DNA of 64,000 nucleotides from Chitinophaga vietnamensis (GTDB lineage Bacteria; Bacteroidota; Bacteroidia; Chitinophagales; Chitinophagaceae): NCBI RefSeq assembly GCF_902167635.1, contig NZ_CABHMS010000007.1, positions 186,001-250,000 on the forward strand, written 5' to 3'. The notes under the pieces were generated by a model. It was not told where the DNA came from, did no database searches, and saw only the letters and a program-made list of their open reading frames with translations. This document shows, in pieces, positions 59,084 to 60,752 of this stretch. Positions within the stretch are counted from its first letter, which is position 1. Each line of letters begins with the position of its first letter. The position numbers and the translations under genes were made by a program.

Positions 59084-59245
59084 CGGATCAGTTTTTGTTT
59101 AGGATAGAAAAAATAAAGACGTGGTTGATACATCCCTGGCACGGGTTTCATCGTTCACTGATGACAATAGGGCTATTGATTCTTTTATTTGCTCTCCAAC
59201 ATAAAAACTGTTATCTGTAAAAATTATTGTGAAAGGCTAAATAAA

Positions 59246-59275
59246 AAGGCTGTATCGGGGGAGTGATACAGCCTT
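59246..59275 (-). terminator. Terminator of RiPP precursor gene 1
   Basis: AAGGCTGTATC (59246-59256) pairs with GATACAGCCTT (59265-59275) over an 8-nt loop, followed on the minus strand by TTTTTAT. It is 31 bp after the stop codon of the last precursor gene. Confidence 0.85.
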
Positions 59276-59305
59276 CGTTGCATTGCTTACCACGAACAGT
59301 ACTAC

Positions 59306-59452
59306 TTAGCAGAAATCAGAGCAGGTGCGGCGCGCCGTGCAGAGGTCAGTGCAGGTGTAGATGGTGAGCTTGGCATTGGCAGGAACTTCCTGTGAAAGAT
59401 TGGCTACTTTGATAGTGCCGAGTGTCAGTTTTTTGGAGTTTTGTTTTTTCAT
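59306..59452 (-). CDS. RiPP (lanthipeptide-like) precursor 1
   Basis: A 48-residue peptide, too short for routine gene finders. The leader has KKLTLGTIKVANLSQ, a pattern like the KLxL..IA.L leader of Bacteroidota class I lanthipeptides. The candidate core ends in a Thr/Ser/Cys-rich tail with Cys34, 38, 44 and 48 (spacing 3, 5, 3) and the final residue Cys; Thr33, 35, 39, 43 and Ser45 are possible dehydration sites. Two paralogues follow upstream on the same strand, each with the same MKKQ...KK start. No LanB, LanC or transporter is nearby. Class assignment is inferred from the leader. Confidence 0.75.
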   Translation of the reverse strand: MKKQNSKKLTLGTIKVANLSQEVPANAKLTIYTCTDLCTARRTCSDFC

Positions 59453-59556
59453 AACATTTATTTTTTTGGGTTTATACCAGCAAATTAGTTTTGGCGACTG
59501 CGCTATTATCGCATTTTCAATAAACCAGTAGTAGTACTTCAGTAGTTCTACTTACA

Positions 59557-59590
59557 AAAGAGGGGACGCCGAAAGTGGCGTCCCCTCTTT
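59557..59590 (-). terminator. Terminator of RiPP precursor gene 2
   Basis: Perfect 14-bp arms (59557-59570 and 59577-59590) with a GAAAGT loop, followed on the minus strand by TTTTGT. It ends each of the tandem units in the same position. Confidence 0.85.
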
Positions 59591-59605
59591 ATTTCCGGCA
59601 GTACC

Positions 59606-59752
59606 TCAGCAACGTGGCGTGAGGCATCCGGGGGCGCCGTGTGTACAAACAAAAGTGTAAACGGTAGCTGCTACTACCTGAGGCATTTGCTGGGAAAGGC
59701 GGGCCACTTTGAGGGAACCGAGTGTCAGTTTTTTGGTGGGTTGTTTTTTCAT
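59606..59752 (-). CDS. RiPP (lanthipeptide-like) precursor 2
   Basis: A 48-residue paralogue with leader KKLTLGSLKVARLSQ. Its core has three Cys (36, 43, 48) and again ends in Cys; the core is VVAATVYTFVCTHGAPGCLT and onward. The upstream ~90 bp (TTTGGTTTATTGGGTTTATAAAC-like promoter block, here ATTTTTTTGGGTTTACAACC) is clearly related to that of gene 1, and the units repeat every 300 bp. Confidence 0.75.
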   Translation of the reverse strand: MKKQPTKKLTLGSLKVARLSQQMPQVVAATVYTFVCTHGAPGCLTPRC

Positions 59753-59840
59753 AACATTATTTTTTTGGGTTTACAACCACCAAATTAGTTTTACTAACTG
59801 CGTTATTGATGCTCTTATGAAAAATCAGTAGTAGTACTGA

Positions 59841-59876
59841 CAAAAACAGAGGCACCTGAAAGTGGCGCCCCTGCTT
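59841..59876 (-). terminator. Terminator of RiPP precursor gene 3
   Basis: On the minus strand GCAGGGGCGCC and GGTGCCTCTGT pair around ACTTTCA through several G-U pairs, then TTTTTGTC follows. It is a diverged version of the hairpin at 59557-59590. Confidence 0.65.
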
Positions 59877-59904
59877 CATTTCCGGTCATTACAATGAAAT
59901 TACA

Positions 59905-60054
59905 TCAACATAAATTCGTTGGACAAGTGAACCTCTCTGAACAAAGAAAAGTACAATTGCGAAGAGAAACAGGAATTTCTTTTGAAGCATCCTGTGAGAG
60001 ACGGGCAACTTTGATAGCGGCAAGTTTCAGTTTTTTGGTGGGTTGTTTTTTCAT
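59905..60054 (-). CDS. RiPP (lanthipeptide-like) precursor 3
   Basis: A 49-residue paralogue whose leader is KKLKLAAIKVARLSQ. The core has Cys34, 38, 44 and 49 (spacing 3, 5, 4), nearly the spacing of precursor 1, with the tail NCTFLCSERFTCPTNLC and a terminal Cys. It is the most diverged of the three and first in transcription order. The promoter block (TTTGGGTTTATAAAC) is conserved, but its flank merges into the repeat array at 60100 and beyond. Confidence 0.75.
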   Translation of the reverse strand: MKKQPTKKLKLAAIKVARLSQDASKEIPVSLRNCTFLCSERFTCPTNLC

Positions 60055-60110: not shown

Positions 60111-60752
60111 GCCCCTACGGGGCGACAGGTTGGTAAATAGCATTTCGTCTACCAATATTTCGCCCCTATGGGGCGGATTGCAGCGTAGACCACATATATG
60201 CTATCGAGCTATCGCCCCGTAGGGGCAACATATTGGTAGCAACACATTCAGCCAACAATGTTACGCCCCGTAGGGGCGATATATTGGTAGCAATGTATTC
60301 AGCCAACAATGTTACGCCCCGTAGGGGCGATATATTGGTAGCAACGCATCCAGCCACAATGTTACGCCCCGTAGGGGCGATATATTGGTAGCAATGTATT
60401 CAGCCAACAATGTTACGCCCCGTAGGGGCGACATATTGGTAGCAACGCATCCAGTCAACAATGTTACGCCCCGTAGGGGCGATATATTGGTAGCAACGCA
60501 TTCAGCCAACAATGTTACGCCCCGGAGGGGCAATATATTGGTAGCAACGCGTTCAGCCAACAATGTTACGCCCGGTAGGGGCGATATATTGGTAGCAACG
60601 CGTTCAGCCAACAATGTTACGCCCCGTAGGGGCGATATATTGGTAGCAATGTATTCAGCCAACAATGTTACGCCCCGTAGGGGCGATATATTGGTAGCAA
60701 TGTATTCAGCCAACAATGTTACGCCCCGTAGGGGCGATATATTGGTAGCACA
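60111..60752. repeat. Array of 51-bp tandem repeats built on a GCCCCGTAGGGGC palindrome
   Basis: Unit starts ACGCCCCGTAGGGGCG, then ATATATTGGTAGCAA, then a variable ATGTATTC or CGCATTC and CAGCCAACAATGTT. Starts at 60263, 60314, 60364, 60415, 60466, 60517, 60568, 60619, 60670 and 60721 show a period of 51 bp, once 50. A degenerate unit precedes at about 60212, and irregular palindromes lie at 60111-60123 and 60160-60175. The rest of the 60055-60806 gap has no gene. Confidence 0.9.

Follow-up and report, generated by a model that had tools for sequence, protein, structure and literature searches.

The pinensins, products of the genus Chitinophaga, are of the same lanthipeptide class (class I) as the three small genes described here appear to be, and probably of the same genus. 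In the portion of Walker et al. (2020; PMC7268733) available to us, the pinensin LanB consists of two separate proteins, and class I precursors of Bacteroidota carry the leader motif LxLxKx5L, with Lys at the fifth motif position. Prochlorosins and synechococsins belong to class II, and according to the accessible part of their description (PMC10783134) one ProcM or SyncM acts on many precursors scattered over the genome. The available part of a further source (PMC8960859) deals with unclustered lanthipeptide proteases, a maturation step encoded outside the cluster, and connects precursors with such proteases.

The three genes (the trio) lie within the 64-kb stretch of DNA that was analysed, the window, which spans positions 186001-250000 of contig C7 in a 6.3-Mb genome of 15 contigs (G000; Table 1). 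Compared with the LxLxKx5L precursors as the available text presents them (PMC7268733), the trio agrees in leader spacing, in hydrophobic positions, in the presence of LanB and LanC in the genome and in cores with Cys and Ser/Thr, but it is unclustered, has Thr, Ser and Ala at the motif Lys, lacks a GG site and matches an island that has no C39 transporter. The likeness to the prochlorosins, so far as the accessible text goes (PMC10783134), lies in solo genes found genome-wide, conserved leaders and varied cores; judged by genes alone, our genome has scattered precursors and one matching LanB/LanC pair that may act on them. This pair, however, is class I LanB and LanC rather than a class II LanM, the leader is a different one, and part of the set appears to stand under one operator. 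In contrast to the split pinensin LanB (PMC7268733, as available), the LanB of the matching pair, on contig C4, is a single 1041-aa protein with both domains. The unclustered proteases (PMC8960859, as available) are alike in that a maturation step is encoded outside the cluster, whereas here it is the precursors themselves that lie outside.

Leaders and cores of the three genes

The trio consists of open frames of 48, 48 and 49 aa arranged in tandem on the minus strand about 300 bp apart, in agreement with the initial annotation of this DNA, which had also given the Cys spacings (3-5-3, 6-4 and 3-5-4 in genes 1 to 3) and the C-terminal Cys of all three correctly. Its leader formula, KKLTLGxIKVAxLSQ, is exact for gene 1 and fails for the others: the corresponding string is KKLTLGSLKVARLSQ in gene 2 and KKLKLAAIKVARLSQ in gene 3, and the form common to the trio is KKLxLxxIKVAxLSQ, with Leu for Ile in gene 2.

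Table 1. Positions of the features discussed, given as plain numbers within the window and as contig:position elsewhere in the genome
Feature	Position	Strand	Remarks
Precursor 1	59306-59452	minus	48 aa; predicted ring pairs T35-C38, T39-C44, S45-C48
Precursor 2	59606-59752	minus	48 aa; predicted ring pairs T33-C36, T37-C43, T45-C48
Precursor 3	59905-60054	minus	49 aa, ATG start; predicted ring pairs T35-C38, S39-C44, T46-C49
Inverted repeat AAGTACTACTACTG	59526-59539	minus	upstream of precursor 1; differs at one position from the copy at precursor 2
Inverted repeat CAGTACTACTACTG	59826-59839	minus	upstream of precursor 2
Terminator-like hairpin with T tail	59245-59276	minus	after precursor 1; 1 found, 1.9 expected in shuffles, not significant alone
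C4-type LanB	C4:249191-252316		1041 aa, one protein, both LanB domains
LanC adjoining it	C4:252816-254030		
Solitary LanB (C1:787)	C1:786920-790063		both LanB domains
Eight other non-GG precursors	C4:252533, C2:202187, C2:380601, C2:919802, C2:931457, C3:212807, C1:165861, C1:410792		
Palindrome AAATCMCGNNTTTNCGKGAT, five sites	C4:252368; two between C2:202187 and C2:202616; C2:931373; C2:919973		

Between pairs of genes the leaders are 81-83% identical in DNA and differ, over 21 codons, by 3-5 silent and 4-6 replacing changes, and the cores are 52-55% identical; one core pair shuffled 20 times gave 44-55%. Although the cores are thus at about the level of the shuffles, their Ser/Thr-Cys layout is maintained and reads directly from all three sequences as [ST]xxC, [ST]x4-5C, [ST]xxC. 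A Ser or Thr three residues before the Cys, a spacing suited to ring formation and expected of a LanA core, is found for 6 of the 11 Cys of the trio (1.96 expected in shuffles, P 0.0037, with six distances examined). When the 11 cores of the whole family in the genome (see below) are taken together, this distance is not significant (P 0.08), and a Ser or Thr at five residues before the Cys occurs in 14 of 41 cases, against 6.76 expected (P 0.0029).

Replacement of the motif Lys occurs beyond the trio: the residue is present in 56 of 67 LanB-linked precursors and another takes its place in the remaining 11, and it is missing from 3 of the 14 operator-borne solo precursors that were caught by our search pattern. 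The curated leader models are not reached by the trio, whose best scores are 12.0 bits with NF038153 (lant_leader_L1a, cut-off 22) and 14.9 bits with NF038158 (lant_leader_L1b, cut-off 27). L1b was rejected as the family of the trio; nothing in the genome exceeds its cut-off, and weak matches appear in 5 of 14 control genomes at E 10.

Candidate enzymes and related precursors in the genome

The 64-kb window yielded no LanB, LanC or peptidase-transporter, as the initial annotation had said. Its description of the genes as orphans without modification enzymes holds for the window and fails for the genome, where the search that it had called for returned four LanB (C4, C10, C1:787 and C1:838) and four LanC-type matches; a genome devoid of such enzymes, one half of a finding that it had named as speaking against its proposal, is not what we have. 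For the trio this is a matter of presence in the genome only, and a position beside LanB and LanC, which is usual but not universal for a LanA, is lacking.

The C4 island comprises a full LanB, one non-GG precursor, LanC and a LuxR-type response regulator, and the domains Lant_dehydr_N, Lant_dehydr_C and LANC_like are intact in the enzyme pair. A transporter search, likewise suggested by the initial annotation, found C39 peptidase-transporters in the C10 and C1:838 islands, each of which also has four GG-leader precursors and a LanC, and none in the 20-kb C4 locus. The C1:787 LanB is solitary; response regulators lie close by, and neither a LanC nor a precursor was found within its 20-kb locus. 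One of the four LanC-type matches, a LANC-like domain at C4:154738-155745, lies within a larger frame of roughly 890 aa that may encode a LanC-fusion protein.

Homology to LanB-adjacent precursors, a mark of a LanA, was found for the trio with profiles made without our own genome. One profile was built by position only, taking from 20 other species every ORF between a C4-type LanB and its LanC (75 ORFs, 73 distinct, probably including some that are not genes). Run against the window, which has 1774 six-frame stretches, it matched the three genes with E 1.8e-11, 5.9e-10 and 1.5e-9, the next stretch standing at 0.6. The second profile, of 70 precursors (68 distinct) chosen by leader pattern from whole 20-kb loci, is mildly circular because its rows were picked by that pattern; it gave E 9.3e-13, 6.5e-12 and 2.5e-11, with all other window frames worse than E 1. 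The position-only rerun yielded the same three window matches with weaker E-values than the pattern-chosen profile. Restricted to the leaders, the pattern-chosen set matched the trio with E 6.2e-13 to 1.9e-10, and gene 1 (46.7 bits) scored above the genome's own C4 precursor (42.5 bits). Profiles of the GG-type precursors of C10 and C1:838, which are less sensitive with four sequences each, gave the trio E 0.33 or worse over the full length, and a C10 leader profile (four sequences) E 0.1 or worse.

Eleven non-GG precursors with the trio-type leader occupy nine places in the genome, the trio and eight singles, so that the search for further carriers of this leader proposed in the initial annotation found eight more at eight places. 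Ten of the eleven were rows of the broad profile used in the genome search and match it by construction, C2:919802 being the one that was not a row. A match of the broad profile at C8:280566 was judged to be chance. A profile of the trio only found C3:212807, C1:165861, C2:919802 and C2:202187 independently (E 6.8e-4 to 7.8e-3). With 23.7 bits the precursor beside the C4 LanB exceeds the L1a cut-off, and the other ten fall below the NCBIfam cut-offs. Genome mining relies on enzyme-adjacent precursors and curated leader models, and because a cut-off is reached only by the one precursor in eleven that adjoins a LanB, such sets are easily overlooked.

Across 79 Chitinophaga genomes including our own, the trio profile (threshold E 0.01) has matches in 51 and a C4-type LanB is present in 48. 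This LanB is 46-64% identical in the 47 relatives, other LanB being at most 44% identical among the matches listed. The precursor profile was matched in all 48 genomes with a C4-type LanB versus 3 of the 31 without, although this co-occurrence is partly trivial because many precursors adjoin the LanB. The three exceptions (G018, G030 and G061) each have another LanB and are three of the eight genomes with other LanB alone, and none of the 23 genomes without any LanB at E 1e-60 has a match. Solo precursors far from a LanB are common to several relatives. Among the matches listed for the 78 relatives none comes near the trio's score, the best having 41.8 bits against 97-106.

We compared 21 loci of 20 kb, our own and those of 20 of the 47 relatives with an ortholog. 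The order LanB, one to six precursors, LanC, LuxR-type response regulator is found in all of them, the regulators of the relatives being 53-79% identical to ours, and no other gene of at least 100 aa is common to more than 9. The LanC motifs WCYG and CHG, which we take to be zinc ligands, are likewise present in every locus. A peptidase-transporter, on which such precursors had been said in the initial annotation to rely, was found in none of the 21 loci, and none of the trio leaders has a GG site; that part of the proposal does not fit. A stand-alone C39 peptidase lies beside LanB in L123, L124 and L127 (genomes G044, G062 and G024), exactly the loci with GG-ending leaders, and neither feature was found in the other 18, so that the leader-cleavage step seems to vary with leader type.

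A shared palindrome and other upstream elements

Between LanB and the precursors, 11 of the 21 loci have the palindrome ATCACGnTTTTnCGTGAT or a closely similar sequence, and a looser form is present in 18 of the 20 relatives. In our genome AAATCMCGNNTTTNCGKGAT occurs with at most one mismatch at five sites, each of them before a precursor; a reversed control had none. With a similar pattern we searched 32 relatives, 16 with the LanB ortholog and 16 without, the former being a non-random choice, made for the known or expected presence of the ATCACG form in their islands. Palindrome-like sites number 52 in the 16 genomes with the ortholog versus 6 in the 16 without (reversed control pattern: 1 and 4, respectively).

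Twenty of the 52 sites lie inside the LanB island and 32 elsewhere. Twenty-two of these unlinked sites have a solo precursor that starts 53-72 bp beyond the site, and 10 have none; precursors follow none of the six sites in genomes without the ortholog (Fisher P 0.0029, a value that overstates independence because many of the 22 sites are orthologs of each other). The 22 precursors fall into families also present in our genome, 13 being like C2:919802 and 2 like C2:931457, both with non-GG leaders, and 7 like C2:202616. Six of these seven reach only E 0.16 to 2.2 and were counted by shared sequence and distance; precursors at L182 and L197 were missed by the search pattern and found in a further search. 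C2:202616 itself, which has a GG leader in our genome, is matched better by the C10 profile than by the C4-type profile, and the palindrome may therefore extend to the substrates of a second LanB. A natural candidate for its binder is the LuxR-type response regulator of the island, and the palindrome offers a direct route to the members of the family and their inducing signal.

At C2:202187-202708 in our genome, a divergent pair of precursors, one non-GG and one GG, has two operator copies between them. Operator-like sites also occur at L187, L204 and L207 (G019, G077 and G078) near the start of an alike non-precursor frame of 987-993 aa.

A shared operator was rejected for the trio: it has no site at one mismatch or fewer, and a position matrix from 18 relatives gave no score above background in the 400 bp upstream, the null of this matrix having been sampled from own loci that contained operator sites, which makes its P values too high for true sites. 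Other palindrome-free precursors are C3:212807, C1:165861, C1:410792 and C2:380601. Since the solo family of C1:165861 is shared with G015, G017, G021 and G035, where it is preceded by a DUF805b RNA, a precursor without the palindrome need not be dead.

The inverted repeat upstream of precursors 1 and 2 has three matches in the window versus 0.16 expected. It was rejected as a network motif, with 5 matches in the genome versus 8 for a reversed control, and is therefore probably just a duplicate shared by the upstream regions. Rfam elements are absent from the 64-kb window and hence from the region before the trio. Sigma-70-type promoters are fewer at the trio than in shuffles, a comparison that tells us little for Bacteroidota. 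Just upstream of the trio, at positions 60213-60750, a 51-bp unit that includes the palindrome CGCCCCGTAGGGGCG is repeated in an array of 10.6 copies, and a similar motif is visible by eye in a translation near the C10 island.

The probable modifying pair, its alternatives and an RNA before related genes

Homology and genomic context give good support to the trio as class I lanthipeptide precursors. We propose that these are tandem-duplicated stand-alone LanA that are probably modified in trans by the C4 LanB and LanC, a pairing that is our best reading. The view of the initial annotation, lanthipeptide-like precursors perhaps modified in trans, thus survives as the reading best supported by the sequences, with the qualification that the NCBIfam leader cut-offs are not attained. 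The leader KKLxLxxIKVAxLSQ would act as a tag read by the C4 LanB dehydratase, which would dehydrate Ser and Thr of the core; LanC would then join the dehydrated residues to Cys in a three-pair ring layout, [ST]xxC, [ST]x4-5C, [ST]xxC. Because one LanB/LanC pair would serve eleven precursors at nine places, enzymes and precursors would meet in trans. Leader removal and export would fall to genes outside the C4 island, and we infer that the trio is expressed and that its products are cleaved, exported and active.

Several findings count against this reading, namely the lack of an enzyme nearby, the replaced motif Lys, the missed NCBIfam cut-offs, the absence of the operator and of an Rfam element, the distance in score from the best match listed for the relatives, the insignificance of the three-residue Ser/Thr spacing over all 11 cores, and the presence of three other LanB. 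Of these enzymes the solitary C1:787 enzyme is the most plausible rival, being complete in both domains with no precursor found in its own 20-kb locus, and it is also relevant that G018, G030 and G061 match the trio profile with another LanB and no C4-type ortholog, the leaders in G018 and G061 being similar. We nevertheless consider it unlikely that the trio are class I precursors served by another LanB, since their leaders and that of the genome's own C4 precursor fit the C4-type-linked profile about equally well, and since the profile matches no genome without LanB at the threshold and only three of eight with other LanB alone. It is slightly less likely again that the three genes are copies of an earlier precursor that, once duplicated, became detached from the shared operator and are now decaying or silent and no longer produced. 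Such copies would be expected to look like the trio in having neither operator nor enriched sigma-70-type promoter, no close match in relatives among the matches listed and a replaced motif Lys in all three; the frames, however, are all open, the leaders have accumulated silent changes beside replacing ones in the numbers given above, and cores at chance-level identity still hold the Cys/Ser/Thr layout. Four other solo precursors are operator-free too, and the C1:165861 family among them is common to relatives. We regard as very improbable that the trio encodes small Cys-rich peptides that are not RiPPs, such as disulphide peptides, which would accord with the failure to reach any curated family cut-off but not with a leader that the profile searches place with those of LanB-linked precursors.

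Modification by the C4 pair, the reading that we prefer, would fit a broader picture on which our judgement is evenly balanced. Chitinophaga would then possess an analogue of the prochlorosin system built on class I enzymes, in which a minimal LanB/LanC island with a LuxR-type regulator and no peptidase-transporter serves about a dozen scattered precursors, part of them under a shared palindromic operator, and in which species-specific tandem copies like the trio form a trial ground for new products. In the literature searched, which covered few subscription papers, we found no report of scattered class I precursors in Bacteroidota or of their regulation. If this picture is true, such a class I pair, with its many unlinked substrates, would lend itself naturally to tests of substrate tolerance.

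The DUF805b RNA (Rfam RF02914), whose name was not found in the literature searched, has 64 matches, and in 9 of 30 loci examined among them it lies some 20-40 nt ahead of RiPP-type genes. These nine are the sites at C1:837173, 837600 and 837832 in our genome, which precede three precursors with GG leaders in the C1:838 LanB island, and L214, L233, L234, L238, L239 and L240 in relatives, and the genes that follow the RNA include the C1:165861 solo family (G035 and G017), GG-type peptides (G015 and G017) and a LanB (G035). The remaining loci have small secreted-looking or larger proteins downstream. The RNA may control such RiPP-type peptides, and our own site at C1:165796 also precedes the C1:165861 solo family.
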